DNA of 64,000 bases from Sipunculus nudus. Taxonomy: Eukaryota > Annelida > Sipuncula > Golfingiida > Sipunculidae. The DNA lies in the NCBI GenBank assembly GCA_026874595.1, contig CM049312.1, forward strand, positions 79,645,429-79,709,428. Reading direction: 5' to 3'. The translations under genes were made by a program, and so were the position numbers. Of the stretch, positions 9,489-61,764 are shown piece after piece (position 1 is the stretch's first letter; every line of letters starts with the position of its first letter). The notes under the pieces are model-generated. The model was not told the origin of the DNA, made no database searches, and was given only the letters and a program-made list of their open reading frames with translations.

Positions 9489-9497
9489 TATATATAT

Positions 9498-9580
<83 letters not shown>
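9489..9580. repeat. (TA)n microsatellite, ~92 bp
   Basis: Nearly pure TA repeat with one AAA interruption. It lies immediately upstream of the Penelope-like relic. Confidence 0.95.
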
Positions 9581-9583
<3 letters not shown>

Positions 9584-9624
9584 GGTAGTATTACCCTCCG
9601 ATGTAAAGTACTCTCATAAAATTC

Positions 9625-10205
9625 ATGAAACTAGTTGAAAAACACTTCCCTAAACATCACAGGTACCACAGGTTATTCAACAGGAACAATTTGAAAATTA
9701 GCTATAGCTGTCTACCCAACATGTCTTACCTGATCAGCAAACATAATATGAAGGTTTTAAATACTGACAATGCTGTGAATGTACCTCAAAAACAATGTAA
9801 CTGCCGTTTAAAAAACGAATGTCCTATGAATGGTCAATGTCAGCTGAAATGCATTGTCTATAAGGCAACAGAACAGACAATGACTTGAAAAACTACATAG
9901 GGTGTACTGAAGGTGATTTCAAGACAAGATACAATAACCACAAGCAATCCTTTCGGAACAGATCCCACGCTAAAATACTGAACTGTCTAAACACATTTGG
10001 TCACTAAAAGACAACAATATCAATTACGAGCTCTCCTGGGAAATATCTGCCAAGGCAGCACCTTACTTCTGTGGGACTAGGAAGTGTGATCTCTGCTTGT
10101 CTGAAAAGCTACTTATAGCAACGGCCCCCTGGATCATTGTTGAACTCAAGAGCTGAAATTCTCTCCAAGTGCCGCCATCAGAACAAATTCACCCTGAAAT
10201 ATTTT
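9625..10205 (+). pseudogene. Penelope-like retroelement, GIY-YIG C-terminal part, frameshifted relic
   Basis: Fragments of one protein read through in all three forward frames. The first frame (9,625-9,888) gives KLVEKHFPKHHRYHRLFNRN, then SYSCLPNMSYLISKHNMKVL, then CNCRLKNECPMNGQC and CIVYKAT. The second (about 9,879-10,008) gives LKNYIGCTEGDFKTRYNNHK and QSFRNR. The third (about 9,977-10,165) gives TELSKHIWSLKDNN, LSWEISAKAAPYFCG and TRKCDLCLSEKLLI. A last piece returns to the second frame with RAEILSKCRHQNKF. The IVY...YIG pair and the NNHKQSFR tract are what I know from the GIY-YIG endonuclease module that follows reverse transcriptase in Penelope-like elements. The reverse transcriptase itself is absent, so the copy is 5'-truncated. 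With at least three frameshifts it cannot encode a working protein. Confidence 0.85.
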
Positions 10206-10847
10206 AAAACCTAGCATTCGTACTAATATTCAGGGTGCCCCCTTGAACCCCCCCGCAAAGAGGATCCGCTGGGCAGACTTACCTGTTCAGGTAGTTGTTC
10301 TCTCACTGCTTTGCAGTGATTAGGGACATGGCGTTACCACTACATCATGGTGAGTTTACCGAGTGGATTCCATTTGGTATGAGAATAGTATAGTATATTT
10401 GCCTTTTATATTGTATATTTGCCTTGTATATTGTGTATTTTCATAATATATGTGTATTTTTATCATATGTATACTACTGATATGTTCACTGCTTCCAAGA
10501 CCCTATTAGAAATCAGTTATATATGCTAATTGAGCATCCTGGTATATATCTTTGTATTATATATTTTATTTACAACAATAATTAACCTCTTTGACCTGCC
10601 CTGTTATGTTCCAGTATCGCACGTGTACCCCGACCAATCCTATTGTGCACCCGAGGACAATAGGATCAGTGTCAGTCTTTCACATGCCCCCCCGCCCCGA
10701 ATCGCACAAAGCATAATCTCGTAATCTCGTAAAGTCTCGGCTTTTCCAAACCACGCCGTAAACTTCATTCTAACCACATTCACCTGATGATCGGGTCGCA
10801 TCCCGTGAAACAGATTGTTGTGAATTAACAGTGTTTTTTTTCTTCAG

Positions 10848-10850
<3 letters not shown>
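10190..10850 (+). mobile_element. 3' non-coding region of the Penelope-like element
   Basis: This stretch follows the last coding fragment. It starts with an inverted repeat (CACCCTGAAATATT near 10,191, AATATTCAGGGTG near 10,231). It ends with a hammerhead ribozyme motif at 10,778-10,825, a T-rich tract and then (TA)n. The assignment to the element rests on position and on the ribozyme, which Penelope-like elements are known to carry in their terminal repeats. The short ORF at 10,530-10,724 is not convincing. Confidence 0.55.
10778..10825 (+). ncRNA. type I hammerhead ribozyme (candidate)
   Basis: All three stems and the conserved core are present in order. Stem I 5' strand is ATTCAC (10,778-10,783). 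The core CTGATGA is at 10,784-10,790. Stem II is CGGG (10,792-10,795), loop TCGCAT, CCCG (10,802-10,805). GAA is at 10,807-10,809. Stem III is ACA (10,810-10,812), loop GAT, TGT (10,816-10,818). The predicted cleavage-site nucleotide is T10,819. Stem I 3' strand GTGAAT (10,820-10,825) is the exact reverse complement of the 5' strand. Stem III is very short, as in the minimal hammerheads reported from Penelope-like elements. One oddity is a T-T mismatch (10,791/10,806) at the base of stem II, where G-C is usual. Activity is unproven. Confidence 0.65.

Positions 10851-10896
<46 letters not shown>
10850..10896. repeat. (TA)n microsatellite
   Basis: About 23 TA dinucleotides directly after the Penelope-like 3' end. 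Confidence 0.95.
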
Positions 10897-30079: not shown

Positions 30080-30158
30080 TCGGGTATCATTGACAGTTAT
30101 ACATCGTTGCTTGTACAGTACACAACAGTGCTCCGTCGCAGCGTTACCGTTATAAACA

Positions 30159-31988
30159 ATGTTTAGAACAATCCTTCATCAGCCGATGCTCCTCCTGTTG
30201 ACAGTTTCTGGCATCTGGTGCTGTCATTCTGGTTGTAACTGTTCAATACATGTATGGAACTGCTCTAGTTTGGGTGTGAATGAAATTCCACAGAATATTT
30301 CAACAAGTGTCCGTCGGATAAATCTGTCAGAAAACAATATCACGAAGGTAGTATCTTCAGGGAACCAAGAAGCGGAAATAGTAGAACTGAACCTTGATTA
30401 TAATAACCTGAAAAGCTTGGACGGAATTACCGATGCATTTCCAATGGTAACAGGATTGAGTATCCAAGGAAACAATATTACCTTTGATGGTAGATATGTA
30501 GGTAAACCATTATTGAAAGTGACAGATCTGAACATAGGTCATAATACAGTCAGATCACTGAAACAGGTTCAAGAGTTATTTCCAAATAATAAGAAACTTT
30601 CTTTATTAAACACATCGATTTCAGATGAAACCATCAAAGAATTCGCCAAGAATAATCGGTCGTTCAAAGAGGTGGAAGATCTGGACTTAGATAACAACAA
30701 TTTAACAACACTGAAGTTTGTCCCTTGGATGTTTCCATCTGTGAATAAACTATACATAAAATATAACAAGTTACAAAGTTTCAACGTTACTGAAATGAGT
30801 GAAATGAAACGACTAGAGGGCCTTTACCTGAGTCACAATAATATACAGCAATCGTGTAATGACCCATGTATTATGTCTGAGCTTCGGGATGTTTATTTCA
30901 ATGAGAATAACACAAAGCTGATGGTACCAAACTTAAAATGGTTGGATTTATCATGGAACCAGCTAAACACCATCCCAACGTTAGATACATGTAGGGATGG
31001 AAATGTGTTATGGTTTTATGGGGCACTCCAGACACTCCTTCTCAGCCATAACTGCATTAGTGAGCTTAAGGATGAGTTCCATGGTCTTCAATGTTTAAAG
31101 TACCTAGATGTATCCCACAATCTTATAAAAAGCGTAAATTTTATTGTGTTTGAACGATTAACTGCCCTGGAGTATTTGAATGTGGCTGGGAACAAATTAT
31201 TCTCTTTAACTTTAGTCCAAGATCTACCATGTTCTTTAAAATGGATTAACATGAAGGAAATGAATCCATGTCTTCTTGCCACCATACCGGGAGAGTCTTC
31301 TGTCTCGGAAGGAAGGTATACCTGTACCTGTAACCCAAACATCACATCTGTTAGAAAACTGACATATCGCTCAGTTTGGCTTTGTCCAGACACTGAGAGT
31401 GTGGGATCTGGCACTGAAATACCTGCTGTAAGATTACAATGGAGCAGTAAACTCGATGTGTATGTCCCAGATCATAGTGACGGCAATATCTTACTGGAAC
31501 AGAATCACCAATGTTTTCTTACCGACAAGTTTGTGTATAATGAAACAACAGTGTACTTGTACCACAACTGTAGCGGAACTTGTCAAGCAAAGGATTTAAC
31601 AATGTACAATATTTCCCTGGATATTGCAGCACTAGTTCAAAAAAGCGTTGAACACAGTCATCTATGTAGACATAAAACAGAGGGTAGTGATGCTGGTCAT
31701 AGTAAACAGGAGAAACTCTGTTATACACCATGTAAATCCCCAAGCTTCCTTAAATTATCTTTAACGGGACTTGGTGTATGTTTAGTTGCTATGGCTATGC
31801 CCATCGCCTTGCTATTTCGTTGCATACTGGTTAATGTAAGCAGATGGAAAAGGTCGAACCCGGGTTCAGTTGAACTGCGTGATGGCTGTACTTTAGACCA
31901 TGCAGAAACCTTTGAGAACGCACTACGGGAGTCTAGTTTGTATGCAGAAATCCAAAACACTCCTACAGCAAGTGAGCGTACATTATAA
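30159..31988 (+). CDS. single-exon leucine-rich-repeat transmembrane receptor with ITIM-like tail
   Basis: A 609-residue type I membrane protein. Residues 1-22 form a signal peptide (MLLLLTVSGIWCC core). A cysteine-rich LRR N-cap follows (C26, C28, C35). About 12 LRRs of the LxxLxLxxNxL type span roughly residues 51-350, for example VEDLDLDNNNLTTL, LKWLDLSWNQLNTI, LQTLLLSHNCISEL and LKYLDVSHNLIKSV. A cysteine-containing region (about 358-525) with many N-x-S/T sites follows, then one transmembrane helix (about 532-558) and a ~50-residue tail. The tail holds S593-L-Y595-A-E-I598, which fits the ITIM pattern S/I/V/L-x-Y-x-x-I/V/L; there is no TIR domain. The start is chosen because of the signal peptide, a favourable A at -3 and an in-frame TAA two codons upstream. 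TATA upstream and AATAAA downstream support a live gene. Single-exon LRR receptors are common in molluscs. The ligand is unknown, and inhibitory signalling is inference. Confidence 0.92.
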   Translation: MFRTILHQPMLLLLTVSGIWCCHSGCNCSIHVWNCSSLGVNEIPQNISTSVRRINLSENNITKVVSSGNQEAEIVELNLDYNNLKSLDGITDAFPMVTGLSIQGNNITFDGRYVGKPLLKVTDLNIGHNTVRSLKQVQELFPNNKKLSLLNTSISDETIKEFAKNNRSFKEVEDLDLDNNNLTTLKFVPWMFPSVNKLYIKYNKLQSFNVTEMSEMKRLEGLYLSHNNIQQSCNDPCIMSELRDVYFNENNTKLMVPNLKWLDLSWNQLNTIPTLDTCRDGNVLWFYGALQTLLLSHNCISELKDEFHGLQCLKYLDVSHNLIKSVNFIVFERLTALEYLNVAGNKLFSLTLVQDLPCSLKWINMKEMNPCLLATIPGESSVSEGRYTCTCNPNITSVRKLTYRSVWLCPDTESVGSGTEIPAVRLQWSSKLDVYVPDHSDGNILLEQNHQCFLTDKFVYNETTVYLYHNCSGTCQAKDLTMYNISLDIAALVQKSVEHSHLCRHKTEGSDAGHSKQEKLCYTPCKSPSFLKLSLTGLGVCLVAMAMPIALLFRCILVNVSRWKRSNPGSVELRDGCTLDHAETFENALRESSLYAEIQNTPTASERTL

Positions 31989-47215: not shown

Positions 47216-50200
47216 GACGAAGATATGAAGAAAAAGCCGTAAGCCAAAAACAATAGGCTCCGAGGATAACGCATTAGACACTTGATGAATAAGTTTCAGA
47301 GCGATTGCTTGAAAATTTTGGCCTGTAGAGCAGACACAAACAAACAAACAAACTAGATGACCTGAGGTCACGCGCTTGCCGGAAATGACATAAAGTTAGT
47401 CAGATGAACGAGCAATGTCAAAGTGAAAGAAAATAATCCCTAGTTTGTAAAGATAGGATCAATATTAACAAAGTTCTGAAGAAAAAAAAATGATGTTTTG
47501 ATCACCTAGACCTTGACCTTTGACTTATTTGAATAATAAACATAGGCCTTCCAGATATCGTTACGAAATATGACAAGTGTAAGTTACAAAGCGATTCCTC
47601 CAAAATTGTGGCCAGTAGAATGGTATATGTGAGACGCAAGAACCAGGAAGCAGGCTAAATTAAGGACAACTGAAAACAGACAAACATACTGACAAACTTA
47701 CCCAAGATTGAGACCAGTTGACTTAATCATGTGATGGAGAAACCTTAGAGGAAGACAATAAGCTATAGTTTATGTAATTGAGGTTTATAGTTTTGGAGAT
47801 ATGGGCAAAAAATGATATGTTGTGGAAGTTTGAGTGCACCGCCCCGTAGCGGCCATATCTGGAAAATGAAAAATTCTTTTCGAGATATTAGTGTAAGACA
47901 TAAGATGTAATTGTTTTAAAAGGAATTTTTCAAAACTGTGACCTGTAGAATGCTATATGTGAGACGCAAGGACCGGTAAGCAGGCGAATTTGAGGACAAC
48001 TGAGAAACAGACGGACACACTGACAAAGTGACTCAAGATTGAGTCAAAATGACTACACCAGGATTTAGAAAAGACTCAGAGGATGAAAATAAGCGATAGT
48101 TTATGTAATTGAGGCTCACAGTTTTGGAGATATGGCCAAAATATAATTTGTTGGGGTGGTTTGCATACAGCGCCACCTAGCGGCATCATTCAAAAAATGG
48201 AAAAACAGATTCGAGAAAATTGTGTAGGACTTATGATATGTCATTTTCAAAAAAGATTTCTGCAAAACTGTGACCTCTAGGGCAAGATTACTGAAATCTC
48301 GAAATATCTCGTTTGACGAAATATTATACGAGAAATCGTGAGACCTGTAATAAAATCTTGCAGTAATTGTTAATACTACCTGAAGCAAAAAATAAGACCT
48401 CTCTAGCTTTAAAACTGACAAAGTTAGAAAAACAAGACCCATAATTTTCAAATATCATGACTTTTCCCCCAAATTAGTAACCATGGTTACAGCAAATTTG
48501 AGCCAGCTACACACTAGAAGAAAGGTCTTGGAATGACGATTAAAATGAGCTATTGTTGAAGTAGATACGACTAATAGTAACAAAAATATGAAGAAAAAGC
48601 CGTTTGAAGAAGTTTTGATGACCTTGACCTTGACCTTTGACCTACATTGCTCAAAAACAATATGCCTCAAGGACTTTTGCTTGTCTAACAACTGTGTAAG
48701 TTTAAAAGCCATTGCTTTAAAATTGTGACCTCTACAGAGTACACAGACAGACAGACAAACAGACAAACTAGACGCCCAGAGGTCGAGCGCTTGCCGGAAG
48801 TTGAAACGACAGACAGACGGACAGACAGAACAAATTGTGGGTTTTCTATTATTTTAATGACCCTCAGCGTTTGCTGAGAAGTTGTGGCCGGTAAAATGAC
48901 ATATCAGACAAAACAACGAGGAAGCAGACAAAGCTGACCACAAAAGACGAACAGACAGATATACTGACACATCTGTGATAACAGATTACCAGACAAAAGT
49001 GCCGAAGGTAAAGAAGAGCAAAATGAGCGATAGTTTATGTAGGTAAGGTTTATAATTTAGGAGATATAGCCAAAACATGATATGTTGGGGAGGGAAAGTG
49101 CAGCGCCCCCTGGTAGCCCTATCCGGAAAATGAAAAACAGTTTTGAGATATTCGTGAAACACATAAGATGTACCAGTTTTAAAAGGATTCCTGAAAAAAC
49201 TGTAGCCTGTAGAATGCTATATATGAGACGAAAGCAGGCGGATTTGAGGACAACTGACAAAAAGACAGACACACTGACAAAGTAATTCAAAATTAAGACC
49301 AGATGACATTACTAGGATATGGAGAATAATCAGGGAAAGAAAATAAGCCATAGTTTCTGTAATTGAGGCTTTGGGTTTTAGAGATATGGCCAATATAATG
49401 ATATGTGTGTGAGGGGTATGTGCAGCGCCACCTAGCGGCTATATCGGGAAAATGAAAAATAGTTTCAAGATATATCTGTAAAACATTATACGCATCAGTT
49501 TTCAAATGCTTCTTTAAAAACTGTGGCCTGTTGAATGCTATATGTGAGACGCAAGAACCAGCAAGCAGGCGAATTTGAAGACAACTGACAAACAGACGGA
49601 CACACTGACAAAGTGACACAAGATTGAGACTAGATGACATTATCAGTTTATGGAGAAGACTCAGAAGAAAAAAATAAGCTATAGTTTATGTAATTGAGGC
49701 TAAGGGTTTTAGAGATATGGCCAATGTAATGATATGTGTGAGGGACATGTGCAGTGCCCCCTAGCAGCCATATTCAAAAAATGAAAAAAAGATTTTGAGA
49801 TACTAGTGTAGGACTTATTATATTTCAGTTTCAAAAAGATTCCTGCAATAATGTGGCCTTTGGCGCAAGATGAATGAAATCTCGAAATATCTCTATTCAC
49901 GAGACATTTTACGAGATATTGCAAGACTTGTAATAAAATCTTGTAGAACTAGTTAAATGCCACCTGATGCAAAAAACTAAACCTCTTTAGCTTTAAAACT
50001 GACAAAGTTAAAAAAAATAAGACCCCTTATTTTCAAATATCATGATTTTCACCCCAATATGCGTAACCATGGTAACAGCAAATTTGAGGCAGCTACACAC
50101 CAGAAGAAAGGCCATGAAATCACGATTAAAATGAGCTACGCTTGAAGTAGATACAACTAATAGTTACAAAGATATAAAGCAAAAACCGTTTTGAAAAGTT

Positions 50201-51955
50201 TTGATGACCTTAACCTTGACCTGTGACCTATATGGCGCAAAAACTATAGGCCTCCAGGAATTTTCCTTGTCTACGAGCTGTATTAGTTTAAAGACAATTG
50301 CCTTAAAATTGTGGCCTGTAGAGAGTACACAGACAGGCAGACAGATAGACAGACAGACTAGATGACCTGAGGTCACACGCTTGCCGAAATGATGTAAAGT
50401 TAGTCAGATGAACGAGCAGTGTCAAAGTGAAAGAAAATAATCCATAGTTTGTGAAGAAAGAACCAATATTAACAAAGTTCTTAAGAAAATAAGATTTTGA
50501 TATATTTTGATCACCTTGACCTTGACCTTTGACTTACTGAATAAAAAACATAGGACTTCCAGATATCATCACGATATATGACAAGTGTTATTTACAAAAC
50601 GATTCCTACAAAATTGTGGCCAGTAGAATGCTACAAATGAGGTTTATAGTTTTGGAGATATGGCCAAAAAATGATATGTTGTGCAAGTTTGAGTGCACCG
50701 CCCCCTAGCGGCCATGTCTGGAAAATGAAAAATTTGTTTCGAGATATTAGTGTAAGACATAAGATGTAATAGTTTTAAAAGGATTGTTTCAAAACTGTGG
50801 CCTGTAGAATGCTATATGTGAGACGCAAGAACCGGTGAGCAAGCGAATTTATGGACAACTGAGAAACGGACACACAGACAAAGTGACTCAAGATTGAGAC
50901 CGAATGAATACACCAGGTTTTTGAAAAGACCCAGAGGAAGAAAATAAGCTATATTCTATGTTAATGAGGTTTATAGTTTTGGAGATATGGCCAAAAAATG
51001 ATATGTTGTGCAAGTTTGAGTGCACCGCCCCCTAGCGGCCATGTCTGGAAAATGAAAAATTTGTTTCGAGATATAAGTGTAAGACATAAGATGTAATAGT
51101 TTTAAAAGGATTCTTTCAAAACTGTGACCTGTAGAATGCTATATGTGAGACGGAAGAACCGGTAAGCAGGCGAATTTGAGGACAACTGAGAAACAGACGG
51201 ACACATTGACAAAGTGACTCAAGATTGAGTCGAAATGACTACACCAGAATTTTGAAAAAGACTCAGAGGATGAATATAAGCTATAGTTTATGTAATTGAG
51301 GCTTACAGTTTTGGAAATATGGCCAAAACATGATATGTTGGGGAGGTTTGCATACAGCGCCACCTAGCAGCTGTATTAAAAAACGGAAAATCAATTTCGA
51401 GATAATAGTGTAGGACTTACGATATGTCAGTTTCAAAAAGATTCCTGCAAAACTGTGACCTCCAGGGCAAGATTACTGAAATCTCGAAATATCTCGTTTG
51501 ACGAGAAATTAAACGAGATATCGCGAGACCTGTGATAAAATCTTGCAGTATTTGTTAAATGCTACCTGATGCAAAAAATAGACCTCTCTAGCTTTAAAAA
51601 TGATAAAGGTAGAAAAATAAGACCCCAGATTTTCGAAAATCATTAGTTTTTCCCAAATATTCGTAACCATGGTTACGGCCTATTTGAAGCAGCTACACAC
51701 CAGAGGAAAGGCCTTGGAATGACGATTAAAATGAGATATGTTTGAAGTAGATACGACTAACAGTAACAAGGTATGAAGAAAAAACCGTTTTGTATACTTT
51801 TCGTGACCTTGACCTTGACCTTTGACCTATATTGACCAAAAACAATAGGCTTCCTGGAATTTTGATTCTTGACCAGCTTTGTCAGTTTGAAAGCAATTGC
51901 TGCAAAAGTGTGGCCTGAAGAGAGTCCACAGACAAACAAACAAACACACAAACAG
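47216..51955 (+). repeat. composite interspersed-repeat array with modular units
   Basis: Modules recur in a loose order. (a) ACTAGATGACCTGAGGTCACGCGCTTGCCGGAAATGA (47,354, 50,364). (b) a TGACCTTGACCTTTGAC stretch. (c) ATAAGCTATAGTTTATGTAATTGAGG.TTATAGTTTTGGAGATATGGCCAAAA. (d) CACCGCCCCCTAGCGGC. (e) TATGTGAGACGCAAGAACCGG..AGCAGGCGAATTTGAGGACAACTGA. (f) TGAAATCTCGAAATATCTCGTTTGACGAG. (g) GTAACCATGGTTAC with TACACACCAGAAGAAAGGCC. Two copies of module c-e at about 50,641 and 50,968 are almost identical (offset 327). Minus-strand ORFs rich in VCLSVC or FLSV are chance readings of ACAG tracts. Confidence 0.75.
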
Positions 51956-52515
51956 ACATACGGAACTGACCAACCAACTTGCCGAAATCGAAGATTTCCG
52001 GCAAGCAACAAACAAACAGACAGACAGACATCCGCGACTGACCAACCAACCTGCAGAAATCGAAGATTTCCGGCAAGCAACAAACAGACAGACATACGCA
52101 ACTGACCAACCAACTTGCCGAAATCGAAGATTTCCGGCAAGCAACAAACAGACATACGCAACTGACCAACCAACTTGCCGAAATCGAAGATTTCCGGCAA
52201 GCAACAAACAGACATACGCGACTGACCAACCAACTTGCTGAAATCGAAGATTTCCGGCAAGCAGCAAACAGACATACGCGACTGACCAACCAACTTGCCG
52301 AAATCGAAGATTTCCGGCAAGCAACAAACAAACATACGCGACTGACCAACCTGCTTGCCGAAATCGATTTCCGGCAAGCAACAAACAAACAGACATACGC
52401 AACTGACCAACCAACTTGCCGAAATCGAAGATTTCTGGCAAGCAACAAACAGACAAACAGACATCCGCGACTGACCAACCTGCTTGCAGAAATCGAAGAT
52501 TTCCGGCAAGCAACA
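51956..52515 (+). repeat. minisatellite of nine 60-72-bp units, each with a strong hairpin
   Basis: The unit is ACTGACCAACCAACTTGCCGAAATCGAAGATTTCCGGCAAGCAACAAACAGACATACGC-like. The mark AAGATTT recurs at 51,991, 52,063, 52,127, 52,187, 52,247, 52,307, then (after one unit lacking the loop) 52,429 and 52,496. In each unit CTTGCCGAAATC pairs with GATTTCCGGCAAG around GAA, a 12-bp stem with one bulge. The 259-, 233- and 198-codon minus-strand ORFs here are periodic artefacts. Confidence 0.9.
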
Positions 52516-53880
52516 AACTAGATGACAAGAGGTCATGCGCTTGCCGGAAATGACGTAATGTAAGTCAGATGAATGAGCAATGTCAAAATGAAAGAAAATA
52601 AGTCATCATTTGTAAAGATTGGACCAATATTAACAAAGTTCTGAAGAAAATAAGCTTTTGATATGTTTTGGTCACCTTGACCTTGACCTTTGACTTATTT
52701 GAATAATACAAATAGGCCTTCCAGATATCGTTACGGAATATTACAAGTGTAAGTTACAAAGCGATTCCTGCAAAACTGTGGCCAGTAGAATGCTATATGT
52801 GAGAACCAGGAAGCAGGCGAAATTAAGGACAACTGAAAAACAGACAAACATACTGACAAACTAACCCAAGATTGAGACCAAATGAATACACCAGGTTTTT
52901 GGAAAGACCCGGAGGAAGAAAATAAGCTATAGTTTATGTAAATGAGAATTATAGTTTTGCAGAAATGGCCAAAAAAATGATATGTTGTGCAAGTTTGAGT
53001 GCACCACCCCTAGCGGCCAATTCTGGAAAATGAAAATTTTTTTTCGAGATATTAGTGTAAGACATAAGATGTAATAGTTTTAAAAGGATTCTTTCAAAAC
53101 TGTGACCTGTAGAATGCTATATGTGAGACGCCAGAACTGGTAAGCAGGCGAATTTGATGAAAACTGACAATCAGACAGTCATCCTGACAAAGGGACACAA
53201 GATTGAGACCAGATGACTAAACGAGTTCATGAAGAAGACTTAGAGGAAAAAAAATAAACAATAGTTTTTGTAATTGAGGCTTATAATGTTGGAGATATTG
53301 CCAAAACATGATATGTTGGAGAGGTTTGCACCCAGCTCCCCCTAGCGGCCGCATTCAAAAATGAAAAAACGATTTCGAGATAATAGTGTAGGACTTAAGA
53401 TTTGTCAGTTTCAAAAAGATTCCTGCAAAACTGTGCCTCCAGGGCAAGATTAATGAAATCTCGAAATACCTCGTTTGACGAGATATTATACGAGATATTG
53501 CGAGACTCTTAATAGAATCTTGTAGTACTAGGTGAATGCTACCTGAAGCAAAAAACTAGACCTCTATAGCTTTAAAACTGACAAATTTAGAAAAATATCA
53601 GCACTTTTCCCCAAAAATGCGTTACCATGGTTACTGCAAATTAAGTCAGCTACACACCAGAAGACAGGCCTTGGAATGACGACTAAAATGAGCTACAGTT
53701 GAAGTAGTTACGACCAATATTAACACAGATATGAACAAAAAACCGTTTCGTATACTTTTGATGACCTTGATCTTGACATTTTACCTATAATGCCCAAAAA
53801 CAATAGGCTTCCAGGACTTTTGCTTGTCTATCAGCTGTGCAATTGCTGAAAAATTGTGGCCTGTAGACAGCCCACAGACA
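52516..53880 (+). repeat. composite interspersed-repeat array, continued
   Basis: Restarts with CTAGATGACAAGAGGTCATGCGCTTGCCGGAAATGACG (52,518) and repeats modules b-g: TGACCTTGACCTTTGAC at 52,679, CCTAGCGGC at about 53,009 and 53,341, TCTCGAAATACCTCGTTTGACGAG at 53,458 and GTTACCATGGTTAC at 53,621. Confidence 0.7.
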
Positions 53881-55729: not shown

Positions 55730-58161
55730 TTCTAGTTTATGTAGGTTTTACAGTTTTATAGGGTATATAGATTATAAAGTTAAAATTGAGTAACGATTTA
55801 GGCATTTCATTTTTTTAATGGTTGCTTACCTGCAGTATTATAACCACTTGCGCCATTGCATGAACGCTGTGTTGTGTAAGCAGCCGTCTCACGTGTCACT
55901 AAAAGTGAACATAAACATATAAGTACAGTTTGGGATACCAACTATTTAGAAAAAGTAATAATATTTAAGAAAATGAGTATGTAGTACCTGCTTGACAGGC
56001 GAAGGGATATATTTTGTCGCAGTCGGAAGATAACAAATAGTACCCCTTGTAAAACCTATGAAGCACCGCACATCTCTTTCCCGGGACAGACTCTGGCTGG
56101 TCATCATACCACAACGAGCGAGAGAGAATCGTTTCTCCTAAAAATTAAATACTTGAGACATATCATATCAAGTATAAAAGCAGTATCATATATTACATCA
56201 GATTAAAAAAAATGGAAATGAACATTTTTAAATTCAAAGACTTAATCGTTTGTACCCAGAGTATATGACATTTAACATTCGTTAGTAACTCACTTGTCCC
56301 TCTTTTGTCTATGAACCAGTCACTGTGTCTCACACCAAGCCAAAAGCTGTCACATGAACGGATACCAAGTGTGCCTATAGCCTGCCGGATTTGCTCTGCT
56401 GAATGTGCATTCTGGACAAACTCTAAGGATCCGTTCATCTTCCGACACAGATTCCTTGCACCAAACCAGTTGCCCTCATCACACCCAATAATATAACAGC
56501 CACCATTTTCTCTCAAACAATTGTAAGAGGTCACGGATATTGGACATTCTGTGCACTCTAAGAATCGACGACAGATATACGTAGAAAGAAATACAGTTTC
56601 AGATATGGTGGGAAAAAAATTTACAGGATTAATATTCAATTATATTATTTCTCGAGAATAGAAATGGTGAAGTGTGTAACATGCAGTATGGTCGCCTTTC
56701 TTGGATATAATTAGTTAGTGAACTGAATATATATAACTTATTTTTTATATTTCTGTCATTCGCAACCAAAATATTTGTTGAAGTCGGACTGATATAACGG
56801 TATCAAAACGCCACTGCAAAGGTTGATTCAGCCGTGCCGTGAGACTTTTTTTTTAGATTGGAAGGCACATATTTGCTTGGAAAAGAAATGTCTAGGTACA
56901 AGATTCCATAACTTTTTATGAAGTTTATGAATGTCAATCAACTAACCTATGCGACATACATATCCTTTGCCTTTGGATTCGCAGTTGTCCACTTCTAAGT
57001 TTCCTGTTCGCCTGTCAATCATAGCACATTCTGTAAGTTGACCATTGTTCCTCCAGCTATAATCCTTAATGTGCGCTTTATCACAGAATGGAAATTTATT
57101 ATACACAAAAACTCGTGTGAAATAACAACACATATGAAGAATCGGCAGGCATTAAGGTAGTAATCATTCAGGGAACTGTTGTTTGGATCCTTCTTGTGAG
57201 TTTCCCTGTCAGATCTGTCGCAAATAAATTGAGATATTTTGTAGGGAGTATGATGGGAGTACGTAAGTTACACTGTTAATGAAGTCTCCATACATCAGTG
57301 GCGGATCAGGCGCTGGATTACATAATAATCTGGGATGATGTCTAAACAACTCTCACATTAACACCTGTCCCACTGACTGAACCAATATCATGATACTTCA
57401 GATTGATATAACACTGTTTGGAATGTCCTGGGAAAGTCATGCCAGATTGTATTCACGCCAACGGCTGACACTGACAAAGTTGACAATGCACCTTCTATGC
57501 TCCACTTCCTTTAGTCAAATTTCTGTGCTCTTGCACCTTTGCATACGTACAATTTTCTGTCCCGTCGACATTTTCCCAGTTTTCAAGGTCCTTTTTGATG
57601 ACAGGCATCCACATGTCTCTCAGTTTATTTCTTCTCATCAAAGACACGAACTGTTTGTACAATTTATCTATATCCTCAATCATGGAGTTATTGTTCATTA
57701 TGTCACAAAATGTTTTAGCGGCGCTGTAATTGTACTGATGGGTAATGCCATTCTCGGACTGGGCAAGAACGTATTCGCTTCCAGAAGCATCCGCTATTAA
57801 AATAGATAAAAATGAAGTTGATTAGTTACTTTGTATCTTTTATTGTGAGAATAAAATTCCCTTACGATCAATTTATACACTTTGCACTAGCCAAAGTTTT
57901 CCCCGGATTTATTCTGTGCATTCTTGAAAAGGGATAAAATCATCATCGCCCATGAACCAATTACGATGTCTGCCTTTTTTTCTGCACATTGTTTACATTT
58001 ATGTTTTAGACAACTCTATCTGATGTTCATTATATAACGACATATCTTAAATCTGTTTTTGTTAAATAAATTTTGCAATTAAAATTCTCACCTGCAACAT
58101 TTATTGAAAAAAGGCATATGACTGTAAACAGAATAGTCAGCGAAAACTGAAAATAGAACAT
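54827..58161 (-). CDS. two-domain C-type-lectin-like transmembrane receptor (eight supported exons)
   Basis: The exons on the minus strand, in order, are 58,092-58,161, 57,551-57,793, 56,947-57,111, 56,294-56,557, 55,988-56,137, 55,830-55,898, 55,552-55,584 and 54,827-54,955. Every junction is GT-AG and every intron is phase 1. Together they encode about 374 residues: a signal peptide, two C-type-lectin-like domains (exons 2-3 and 4-5), a short stalk (exons 6-7) and a transmembrane helix (exon 8). The second domain has FWLGVR, paired cysteines and a tryptophan-rich core. Neither domain has an intact EPN/QPD or WND calcium/sugar motif, so sugar binding is uncertain. The likely role is cell-surface recognition. 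The exon 2 donor (GTACGT) was chosen because it is the only nearby one in phase with exon 3. The tail probably lies far downstream (about 42 kb). No promoter was identified; an acceptor-preceded segment near 58,440-58,545 could be a 5' UTR exon. Confidence 0.85.
55552..55584 (-). CDS. C-type-lectin receptor exon 7: stalk micro-exon (33 bases)
   Basis: Encodes GPSTVTVSDLS, Ser/Thr-rich. Acceptor AATCTTTTCAG and donor GTAAGA fit; symmetrical phase 1-1. Confidence 0.7.
55664..55726. repeat. (TA)n microsatellite in intron 6
   Basis: About 30 TA dinucleotides with an AAA interruption, between exons 6 and 7 of the lectin receptor. Confidence 0.95.
55830..55898 (-). CDS. C-type-lectin receptor exon 6: stalk
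   Basis: Encodes VTRETAAYTTQRSCNGASGY then NTA, Ser/Thr-rich with one cysteine. Acceptor TTCACTTTTAG, donor GTAAGC, phase 1-1. Confidence 0.7.
55988..56137 (-). CDS. C-type-lectin receptor exon 5: second half of domain 2
   Basis: Encodes ETILSRSLWYDDQPESVPGK, then RCAVLHRFYKGYYLLSSDCD, then KIYPFACQA. The W..DQPES..G..CAVL....LLSSDC....PFAC spacing is that of the long-loop half of a C-type-lectin domain. QPE stands where QPD is usual and there is no WND. Confidence 0.85.
56294..56557 (-). CDS. C-type-lectin receptor exon 4: first half of domain 2
   Basis: Encodes CTECPISVTSYNCLRENGGC, then YIIGCDEGNWFGARNLCRKM, then NGSLEFVQNAHSAEQIRQAI, then GTLGIRSCDSFWLGVRHSDW and FIDKRGT. NWFGARNLCRKMNGSLEFV and the WLGVR motif are diagnostic of the fold. 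Donor GTGAGT; the frame continues into the intron as a chance ORF. Confidence 0.9.
56947..57111 (-). CDS. C-type-lectin receptor exon 3: second half of domain 1
   Basis: Encodes FFVYNKFPFCDKAHIKDYSW, then RNNGQLTECAMIDRRTGNLE, then VDNCESKGKGYVCRI. ECAMI....G.LEVDNC.....YVC fits a C-type-lectin domain end. LEVDN replaces WND. The acceptor (TTTCACACGAG) is the least ideal in the gene; it was chosen by phase. Confidence 0.75.
57551..57793 (-). CDS. C-type-lectin receptor exon 2: first half of domain 1
   Basis: Encodes the mature N terminus ADASGSEYVLAQSENGITHQ, then YNYSAAKTFCDIMNNNSMIE, then DIDKLYKQFVSLMRRNKLRD, then MWMPVIKKDLENWENVDGTE. YSAAKTFCD and W.NVDGTENF (joined to exon 3) fit a diverged C-type-lectin fold; the WIG/WLG motif is replaced by WMPV. 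Several N-x-S/T sites are present. Confidence 0.75.
58092..58161 (-). CDS. C-type-lectin receptor exon 1: signal peptide
   Basis: ATG at 58,159-58,161 begins MFYFQFSLTILFTVICLFSI then NVA, an almost ideal signal peptide. The donor is GTGAGA and the exon ends in phase 1, matching exon 2. Cleavage is likely near the exon junction. Confidence 0.85.
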
Positions 58162-58809: not shown

Positions 58810-61120
58810 ATGCCAAGTCACCCATTGGTCATGACCCTCAGCTAACTGACATGACGATTTAGCCTAAAATTGACAATAGGAATGTTATCATCTGAATGCC
58901 AAATTAAGATTACCTTTCCTTGTGATCTTTGCCTTTTACCCTCTGGCACAAAAATCGACAGGGTTCATCCTTAAATGATTGATCAAACATATATGTGAAT
59001 GCTGATTCAAATCAAAGTGACCAGTTTTCAACGTCTCTGAGAACTTGGTTTAAACATTTTGACTTTCACATTTGAGGACAAAAGTTAAGTTATCACATTC
59101 ACAAGAAATCCTAAAGATGATGACCTATAATTCGGAAGATTTTTGACCTTGAAGATGTATGTCTTTAAGTAGCAATTTGTGTGAAGAATTTGAAGAGAAT
59201 ATCTCCAGTGCTTTATAATTTTATAGAGGTCACACTATGTCTAGATTTTTGCAGATCTTACCTTGAAGACCACTGTCGAACTCTACAGTTTCCAGGTTCC
59301 TCGGAGAATATGTTAGATGAAACTGGTGTGTCTAATTTGATGGGAAAATCTTCAGTACTTCAAAAGTTTTAGGGGTCCCAATAATCATAGAATTCCGCAA
59401 AGTTGACCTTGAAGATCAGGTCACAAATTTTCGAACTCCTCATGGAATTCTGATGGAAACTACAGCGTCAAATTTAACAGGAAATATGCATTACTTTGTA
59501 CACAAGGACCTTATTATTAAGGCAAATATGATACCCAATCATTTTACATCACCATCAAGGTATACTGTTCATTGACGTTTTTATGAGCTCATCAAAATAT
59601 GGCCTTCACTCCGAAAATTGTTATCCAAACATTAATAAGGTTCTTCCCCCACTGGTCGGTGATCCAGATTTGATGGAAGATTTGAGATCAAAGGTTGGCT
59701 TCGAATGTATCAAGAAGCTAGACAAAGGAGAGAGTCCTATAATCTGACCTTTGAACTTATGACATCCAAATAAAAAGTGTACTTATTTATTGGTAGGTAA
59801 CCATACACGAAGGATAGGAGGTTTGGATTAAAATTTTCGTATTAGATATATTAAAATATTTGTTTATTTATTACCGTTCAGGCAGCGGAGCTGAAAAAAA
59901 TTGAAGTGATAAACGGCGGGAGAACTTGATGGTTTATTTACTTGTTTAAATCAGCTAATATCAATGGTTGTAAAATGTTTGATTTTCATTAAAAGATAAA
60001 TATTTTCATTAAAAGATTTGAATTTTTAAATTATATTATTAGATTTATTGGCACAACGGAAATAGAATCGAGAACTGAATCGAAAGAATATGAATGGATC
60101 ATCGAATCAATTTTTAGGCTCCACACAGGTCTTAGGGTCAAGCTCTCAAGTTTTCAATCTCCTCCAAAACGATGGAAAAACAAGCTTGTGAGTCAAAGAA
60201 ATATTCATTACTTCAAAAGTTTAAGAGGCCACAATAAGACTATAAGATGATAAGGGGTATACCTTGAAAATCAAGGTCATGGTCACCAGTTTTCGAACAT
60301 TTCATTATCATGTTCACAGGAAATCCGAAAAATGATGTACATGAATAAAATTCGACTTAATGTGACCTTAAATTTCCTAAGGTCACCATTTAGAAACATA
60401 AGGAAACAAACCAGTTTTCAGGACACTGGATGAAACCACATCTGCGAAACTGATTCGAATGCTGTACATTTATGCTGCTGTTTATGAAAGCTAAATGTTT
60501 GACCTTCTGACACTAAATTTGACAAGGTTCTTCCTAAATGCTTGTGTAATACATCCGAAGTCTGAATTAATAACTGTATTACCAATATCTACAAATTATA
60601 CAAGAGACAAATACTTAAAAATAAGGATTTTTTAACAATCTGGACTAAAATTCACAATATTTAGTCATATTTTTAAGAACTTTCCAGTTTGTCCAACCTT
60701 TGTAGAGATCAGTCCCATATTTCCGCAAATAATCAGGGAGATTTGACCTTGCGGGCCAAGTCAGAGGGTTCTTGTTGGCACATTTGGAGAACTGGATGTG
60801 TGCGAGGAAGAAATATGCAATATTTTCAAAAGTTACAGTATTCTAAATAAATTATATATTTCCACAAATTTGACCTTGATGTTCAAGTTCAAGATCAATA
60901 GTGCCCTAATTCGTCCAATATATTGGTTGTAGTTATTTATGTATTACATTTTAGGGGGAAATGTACAATGCCTTAAACGTTGTGGGAATCATTATCCTAT
61001 ATTTAAGGTGACTTCCCAGATCATGACAAAAGTCACTAGATTCCTAACCAATTAAGAAAAATGACTAGAACAATTTACGTATCAACTCTGAGTGGGGACT
61101 ACAATATTTCAAATGGTTAT
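58810..61120 (+). repeat. interspersed repeat array of the TTGACCTTGAAGATCAAGGTCA type
   Basis: Starts with an AAGTCACCCATTGGTCATGACCCTCAGCTAACTGACA head (58,818). About ten ~180-bp units carry TTTGACCTTGAAGATCA.GGTCAC, ACCAGTTTTC(A/G)AAC..CTC and AATATGCA.TACTT(C/T)AAAAGTT. The same class occurs at 42.4-43.1 kb. ORFs inside are incidental. Confidence 0.65.
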
Positions 61121-61764
61121 GATGTTCTCAAAAGGGCTATATTTTCGCAGGCTTGTCCTTGAAGATCAAAGTCAAGGTGACCAGTTCTGGAACGAACCGT
61201 TATATTGACTGAAACATCTTGTGCATGTAATTATCGAGTAGTTGGCCAAATATAGGTTTGCGTGACCTTATTATGGGATAAGAGATTTACCCATAACCTG
61301 TCTAGTTTTTAGCAAGAACATGCTAGGTCTAGCTGTTACGATTTGCACCTTGCCAGACAGTCGCTATAGGTCAGCATGAACGAATGTTGGCTGTGCTGAT
61401 ACAACTTAAAACCATTTCCACATTATCTTTAAAGTCATAATTGATGTTCTCAAAAGGGCTATATTTTCGGAGGCTTGTCCTTGAAGATCAAAGTCAAGGT
61501 GACCAGTTCTGGAACGAACCGTTATATTGACTGAAACATCTTGTGTATGTAATTATCGAGTAGTTGGCCAAATATAGGTTTGCGTGACCTTATTATGGGT
61601 TAAGAGATTTACCCATAACCTGTCTAGTTTTTAGCAAGAACATGCTAGGTCTAGCTGTTACGATTTGCACCTTGCCAGACAGTCGCTATAGGTCAGCATG
61701 AACGAATGTTGGCTGTGCTGATACAACTTAAAACCATTTCCACATTATCTTTAAAGTCATAATT
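61121..61764 (+). repeat. near-identical 322-bp tandem duplication
   Basis: Copy 1 is 61,121-61,442 and copy 2 is 61,443-61,764. I see only about three differences (TTTCGCAGG/TTTCGGAGG, GTGCATG/GTGTATG, GGGATAAG/GGGTTAAG), so roughly 99% identity. Each ends in a degenerate pearl-type 3' end (AGTCGCTATAGGTCAGCATGA...CTGTGCTGA). Confidence 0.95.

Follow-up and report, generated by a model that had tools for sequence, protein, structure and literature searches.

A probable hammerhead ribozyme of a Penelope-like retroelement family in Sipunculus nudus and the insertion ends around it

Hammerhead ribozymes of Penelope-like elements (PLEs) have reportedly been in print since the work of Cervera and de la Pena in 2014, and small PLE variants that cleave as dimers are said to have been described in that work and by Lunse, Weinberg and Breaker in 2017. 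According to the portion of PMC6466107 available to us, PLE hammerheads can act as dimers only if the stem III loop is palindromic and the motifs are arranged in tandem, and a review, in the part accessible here, calls their role unknown (PMC7761336). Work on a lizard PLE showed that reverse transcription has two start sites, that the sequence lying between them is the 'tail', and that both strands of the target are cut and extended by the enzyme, with no strand difference in start site in vitro; ribozyme cutting needed the element's protein, and ribozyme mutants still insert, unprocessed RNA being the dominant template (PMC11167929).

The window, by which we mean the whole 64,000-nucleotide stretch of the Sipunculus nudus genome that was analysed, carries a motif that is probably the hammerhead of a PLE family, present here in a dead copy; the same degree of confidence covers the model of RNA start, dimer, cutting and insertion set out below.

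The motif, its family and its conservation

Read letter by letter, the motif runs ATTCAC CTGATGA T CGGG TCGCAT CCCG T GAA ACA GAT TGT T GTGAAT, and the letters, stem order, cleavage position T10819 and coordinates given in the initial annotation all proved exact on direct re-reading (Table 1). The features of a type I hammerhead are present, namely the core CTGATGA...GAA, three helices in order and an open stem I, together with the two type I criteria of an H17 other than G (T10819) and an A-U pair next to GAA (A10810-T10818). A G-C pair at positions 10.1/11.1 is a usual, not an absolute, requirement of hammerheads; this canonical pair is absent, T.T standing in its place in the window motif (U.U in RNA). 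A permissive type I descriptor (stem I of at least 5 bp; stem II of at least 4 bp, one base mismatch allowed; stem III of at least 3 bp with A-U beside the core; H17 not G) matched 10778-10825 alone in the window on both strands and gave no match in 96 Mb of random sequence (one strand; first-order Markov, window statistics), which bears out the low chance of fit claimed at the outset. A second core-like string at about 8824 is absent from the descriptor matches. To call the ribozyme complete was an overstatement, as the motif belongs to the minimal hammerheads of PLEs: its stem III has 3 bp, and the palindromic loop points to a dimer.

Table 1. Positions in the window of the Penelope-like relic, its flanks and the parts of its hammerhead motif
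Feature	Position	Strand	Basis
(TA)46 tract, insertion 5' flank	9489..9580	n/a	repeat listing
5'-truncated Penelope-like relic, ribozyme at its 3' end	9581..10853	+	alignment to array copies, junctions
Inverted piece of family 'tail' (site B end), relic 5' junction	9581..9613	-	junction alignment
Frameshifted 3' part of ORF (C-terminal, endonuclease-like), stop TAG 10212-10214	9620..10214	+	three-frame translation
Pseudo-LTR (pLTR) region	10215..10853	+	array comparison
Inferred family transcript start (+1), 17 nt before CTGATGA	10767	+	5' breakpoint peak
Hammerhead ribozyme motif, type I topology	10778..10825	+	letter-by-letter reading, descriptor match, family copies
Stem I, 6 bp	ATTCAC 10778-10783 with GTGAAT 10820-10825	+	read directly
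Core CTGATGA	10784-10790	+	read directly; same in 30/30 distinct contexts
Stem II, 4 bp, base T.T (10.1/11.1)	10791..10806	+	CGGG 10792-10795 / CCCG 10802-10805
T.T at stem II base	T10791 against T10806	+	positions 10.1/11.1
Stem II loop TCGCAT	within 10791..10806	+	read directly
Core GAA	10807-10809	+	read directly
Stem III, 3 bp, loop GAT	10810..10818	+	ACA 10810-10812 / TGT 10816-10818
H17 = T, predicted cut 10819/10820	10819	+	position in motif
Site A, an insertion end (junction of family CAGAGTTATA with (TA)n)	10848..10853	+	family junctions
(TA)23 tract, insertion 3' flank	10851..10896	n/a	repeat listing

The placing of a type I hammerhead at the 3' end of a Penelope-like relic was upheld by a tandem array (L050, on C12), in which the same 3' end lies beside a 713-codon open frame. 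The array holds three motifs spaced 2,916 and 2,924 nt apart, and the two intervals contain open frames of 713 and 691 codons; the motif sits in the pLTR and precedes the ORF of the unit that follows. Further tandem runs of the motif occur at 2.87-2.93 kb spacing. The array frames contain, by eye, a reverse transcriptase-like YRDDG and a GIY-YIG-like IVY...YIG, which, with other features of the frame, resemble those of Penelope-like element proteins. Searches of Pfam, NCBIfam and PDB sequences recognised neither reverse transcriptase nor GIY-YIG in the array ORF, and domain libraries gave no match for the window remnant at 9620..10214, which shares 94.8-95.7% DNA identity with the three array copies. 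Among the first 100 of 2,093 places of the motif, 22 neighbour pairs lie less than 5 kb apart, 12 of them head-to-head, 10 on the same strand and none tail-to-tail. Head-to-head and tandem pLTRs and a 'tail' on one inverted pLTR are structural hallmarks of EN-containing PLEs, and they are present in this family. Being 5'-truncated and frameshifted, the window copy should no longer move by itself.

The 216 nt surrounding the motif recur at 39 other places at 94-97% identity (40 scored of 1,837 candidates). Moreover, the exact pattern CTGATGATCGGG-N6-CCCGTGAAACA, which covers the core, stem II and the 5' arm of stem III, has 2,093 copies in the 1.43-Gb genome, while its reversed-pattern control has none genome-wide. 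The T.T pair had been regarded as unusual and possibly weakening; it is indeed noncanonical, but it is no lesion of the window copy, since it is the family norm, found in 2,093 of the 2,128 copies counted. The 35 deviating copies comprise 20 with a base other than T at 10.1 and 15 with T at 10.1 and another base at 11.1, and none has the canonical G-C. The six letters of loop II, a CpG included, differ in 15 of the first 100 of 2,093 places; a constraint on 10.1/11.1, argued from the 35 deviating copies against this loop variation, was set aside as too weak.

CTGATGA and GAA are intact in all 30 fetched loci, the window's own copy among them, these loci being best matches and hence biased to likeness; in L015 stem II is altered by a deletion and one other change, and in L018 and L019 stem I or III is altered. 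In a scan of 30 distinct contexts, in which identical contexts were merged and indel-bearing copies such as L015 were not seen, there was no change at CTGATGA, T.T, stem II, GAA or H17, and the changes observed fell in stem I (5), the 3' arm of stem III (3), loop II (1) and loop III (5). One locus, L002/L031, is not independent, as it belongs to a 97% identical copy of the window neighbourhood on the same contig. L031 (G000:C7:79823500-79833000), about 176 kb away, matches window 7.5-10.8 kb at 97% with its flanks included, and it is a segmental duplication, not an independent insertion. Variants of stem II, seen in the first 100 of 223 places, include two T-A for C-G and one A-T beside another mismatch, and the others break the pair (e.g. 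A.G, T.T); both T-A cases are explicable by CpG decay, and none of this was counted as covariation. Alignment to other genomic copies nonetheless came out in favour of the annotation, with core and pairing conserved and more than 2,000 copies carrying the same core and stem II.

Other stretches of the window were also read. Directly after the ribozyme in family copies (window 10826-10848) there is a branch-point-like TTAAC, a T-rich pyrimidine run and CAG, an order resembling a branch point followed by a 3' splice site; GTGAGT occurs near window 10350 and is absent from the array pLTR. Introns in PLE pLTRs are mentioned in the accessible part of PMC11722881. Elsewhere, a 610-codon open frame on the plus strand (30156-31988) appears by eye to encode leucine-rich repeats, with a probable membrane segment, and a 148-codon open frame on the minus strand (56193-56639) resembles, by eye, an exon of a C-type lectin domain. 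Tandem units of 327-331 bp and 60-68 bp are repeated at 47601-53435, and a 322-bp unit occurs twice in tandem at 61120-61764, the two being 99% alike and probably recent.

Covariance models and a palindromic stem III

Rfam returned no hammerhead match at the gathering score across the 64 kb, and none at E<=10 in 5.5 kb or in 91 bases. The control was a set of 20 loci from this genome, chosen among the first 100 listed matches of a canonical hammerhead pattern: 18 were matched by no hammerhead model at E<=1, and the other two by HH9 alone, at 18-19 bits. The silence of Rfam is weak evidence, because the models also miss these 18 of 20 loci, some of which, however, may not be true ribozymes, or the script may have taken the wrong GTC; it found a stem I of at least 4 bp in 6 of the 20. 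A genome search with RF00163 was uninformative, with no match among 73 scored of 150,758 candidates and none in control genomes. The initial annotation had named a sub-threshold covariance score together with unconserved paired positions as what would speak against it; the score is indeed sub-threshold, but the paired positions are conserved in the copies.

It is scarcely credible that the motif is a chance hammerhead-like string without ribozyme history. The negative Rfam result is what such a string would give, but the descriptor found nothing comparable in random sequence, conservation extends across the element, and the location is that expected for PLE hammerheads (PMC11167929). The family copies refute this explanation in practice.

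Stem III and its loop form, in the family, a palindrome with one central mismatch (ACAGACTGT; 8 of 9 positions self-complementary), which is kept through GAC and GTC loop variants; the window form, ACAGATTGT, has 6 self-complementary positions plus 2 G.U. The same rule appears in hammerhead patterns elsewhere in this genome, where, of six other stem III strings, four pair with themselves throughout or fail to do so in the centre alone. When two motifs are joined by an A20 linker, the double hammerhead of the family form reaches -22.8 kcal/mol against -14.8 for two separate motifs, a gain of 8.0, and that of the window form -18.7 against -14.8, a gain of 3.9. The minimum free energy of the tandem pair in the nearest-neighbour model is another fold, at -27.4 kcal/mol, below the double hammerhead; for the isolated motif, too, another fold is preferred, at -11.3 (family) or -13.2 (window) against -6.9 kcal/mol for the hammerhead in both forms, all in energy models that give no credit to the hammerhead core. 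The palindrome points to a possible dimer stem III, and self-cleavage is predicted. As in other PLEs, cutting would be most efficient when two copies of the ribozyme within a tandem transcript pair as a dimer through their palindromic stem III.

Other hammerhead-like families with a canonical G-C at stem II (L051-L070) were also noted, several of them with a palindromic stem III such as ACTAATTAGT and ACCGACGGT. The canonical G-C hammerhead pattern has 156 matches genome-wide, compared with 14 for the reversed pattern.

Ends of the copies and the RNA they may record

With more than 2,000 family copies in one genome, the places where insertions end can serve to trace the RNA. Genome-wide, 71 copies break off at -17 relative to CTGATGA, 2 at -20 and 6 at -12; four 5' positions were counted, and each count requires four foreign letters before the family sequence, a pattern that, like that for the cut site, admits 27-33% of random flanks. 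Both -20 ends are a one-base insertion, and 877 copies continue exactly as family sequence four bases further upstream than -17. In the 20 of 71 loci that were fetched, the upstream DNA is simple-repeat or other DNA, or family pieces, mostly inverted.

A reverse transcriptase that copies a cap leaves an extra G. Apart from 24 of the 71 ends, G stands at -1 in 40 of the remaining 47, where the family letter is C (background share 0.22, binomial p 7e-20; 14 of 19 distinct prefixes, p 2e-6), these ends being not all independent, with three tandem places on C4 and a joint shared by L079 and L080. The base at -17 lies in TTCATTCT, which fits the initiator consensus. No passage supporting a cap-copied extra G was found in the literature searched, the available part of PMC9578709 included. 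The breakpoint peak together with the extra G is taken to mark where a capped RNA begins, 11 nt upstream of the ribozyme. We infer, from the letters of the copies, that the capped RNA of the element probably starts at the equivalent of 10767 and that reverse transcription runs to the cap.

It is rather unlikely that the -17 ends are instead stops of the reverse transcriptase, or repair joints, just beyond the folded ribozyme. The 24 ends set apart above all read TAGA and represent one palindromic joint, GGTTAGAATTCTAACC, often counted from both arms, for which fold-back or microhomology is possible. Additionally, in L071-L077, which were picked for closeness only, 8 of 14 arms have other limits, from -2 to -20, but the other 6 stop at -17. 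Stops or joints would also have to account for a single-base peak that stands against only 2 and 6 ends at two neighbouring positions, for the G at -1 in most other ends, and for the fit of TTCATTCT to the initiator consensus.

With the capped start as reference, the ribozyme of the array unit would span +12 to +59, with the cut at +53/+54 and the first ATG of the open frame at +233, and reverse transcription would start at about +88 (site A) or +148 (site B). Two sites, lying about 30-35 and 95 nt 3' of the predicted cut, serve as alternative ends of new copies, and site A can be interpreted, from the junctions and by analogy with the lizard PLE (PMC11167929), as a reverse-transcription start site. 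Insert ends were scored in 27 loci, of which 7 had been chosen as close pairs and 20 for their -17 end. Two motifs occur in 13 of them, and all 13 have one arm at each site, the site A arm reading CAGAGTTATA-type sequence and then target, and the other continuing through the stem-loop towards site B (...ACTACCTTC); L079 and L080, which share a joint, may be one event. The window copy obeys the same rule, with one site A end and one site B end. The target is AT-rich: (TA)n flanks the window copy on both sides and was seen by eye at most of the family 3' junctions shown, with exceptions such as L074 and L093.

Ends at the predicted cut are rare, with 7 genome-wide by the four-foreign-letter pattern, two of which (AACA) are probable small deletions that join GAAACA to GTGAAT. 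The templates of insertion thus seem mostly uncut, and since both insertion-end sites lie 3' of the cut, copies with motif and tail came from RNA that was uncut there. If the downstream pLTR were cut, the ORF-bearing RNA would lose the reverse-transcription start sites, and cutting would therefore compete with new insertion.

Loss of cutting in this family, by a motif descended from a PLE hammerhead, is unlikely. On that account the sequence persists only by its position, downstream of the RNA start and ahead of the reverse-transcription start sites, which puts it into every new copy. The U.U that the whole family has at the stem II base in place of a canonical G-C, the unfavourable fold of the isolated hammerhead and the apparent origin of inserts from uncut RNA agree with it, as do the lizard hammerhead mutants that still insert in vitro (PMC11167929). 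However, core letters, H17 and stem II are the same in 30 of 30 contexts, drawn from best-match loci, while the loops vary; the palindrome of stem III survives its GAC and GTC loop variants, and it is matched by four of six other stem III strings of the genome.

It is also conceivable, if quite improbable, that the double hammerhead formed through the palindromic stem III serves for dimer linkage, keeping two template RNAs, or a pair of pLTRs on a single RNA, together in the RNP. Each target strand would then be primed on one template, one at site A and the other at site B, and cutting would be a late release step and not the maker of the template. If true, this linkage would explain both the one end of each kind in the 13 head-to-head inserts and the run-off of inserts at the capped 5' end beside the ribozyme.

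Comparison with known systems

Metazoan retrozymes, in the portion of PMC7229834 available to us, share a type I hammerhead and a tandem arrangement with the present family, but they are non-coding units of 150-450 bp with canonical motifs, unlike the 2.92-kb coding unit found here. That the family is itself such a non-LTR retrozyme, with short non-coding units in tandem that carry a canonical type I hammerhead, is very improbable. Copies spanning just -17 to site A do exist, and canonical hammerhead patterns are also present in the genome; the short copies that were read, however, are head-to-head or single and have PLE tail ends, and a tandem unit of about 2.92 kb with a long ORF stands against the 150-450 bp of retrozymes (PMC7229834, same portion). 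Retrozyme identity was rejected on unit size and ORF.

The Penelope elements of Adineta vaga resemble the family in their head-to-head inverted pLTRs with palindromic joints, in the tail on one inverted pLTR and in their tandem and partial tandem units (PMC3846280, in the part consulted). They are a different element, and the words ribozyme and hammerhead do not occur in the main text of PMC3846280 as far as it was available.

With the small dimeric PLE hammerheads the motif shares the minimal type I form in a pLTR, the tandem units and the palindromic stem III loop (accessible parts of PMC6466107 and PMC7761336). It differs in the U.U at the base of stem II, where those have the usual pair, and in its 3-bp stem III with a 3-nt loop, whereas PLE motifs are usually without helix III (PMC6155905, PMC7761336, in the passages available). 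The U.U pair and the 3-bp stem III are variations on known PLE hammerheads. The comparison suggests that the useful part is the position of the ribozyme near the RNA start, the kind of motif being already known. The literature searched describes no capped start immediately ahead of the ribozyme; the primary PLE-hammerhead papers lay outside this comparison, and such a start is not claimed to be unpublished. Run-off inserts from the 5' end of PLE RNA would be a simple source of dispersed minimal hammerheads in animal genomes.

The Poseidon PLE of Anolis carolinensis (PAc) likewise has its hammerhead at the junction of pLTR and ORF and AT-rich targets, two reverse-transcription start sites that bound the 'tail', and uncut RNA as the main insertion template (PMC11167929). 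In PAc, however, the ORF begins at stem II and the cut falls 26 nt inside it, whereas here the cut lies about 180 nt before the first ATG; and PAc has no strand difference in start site in vitro, whereas the scored inverted inserts of the present family have one end of each kind (PMC11167929 for PAc). Altogether, the insertion ends put a probable capped start on one side of the ribozyme and the two reverse-transcription start sites on the other, and the question of what PLE hammerheads do becomes testable through RNA start, dimer cutting and insertion.
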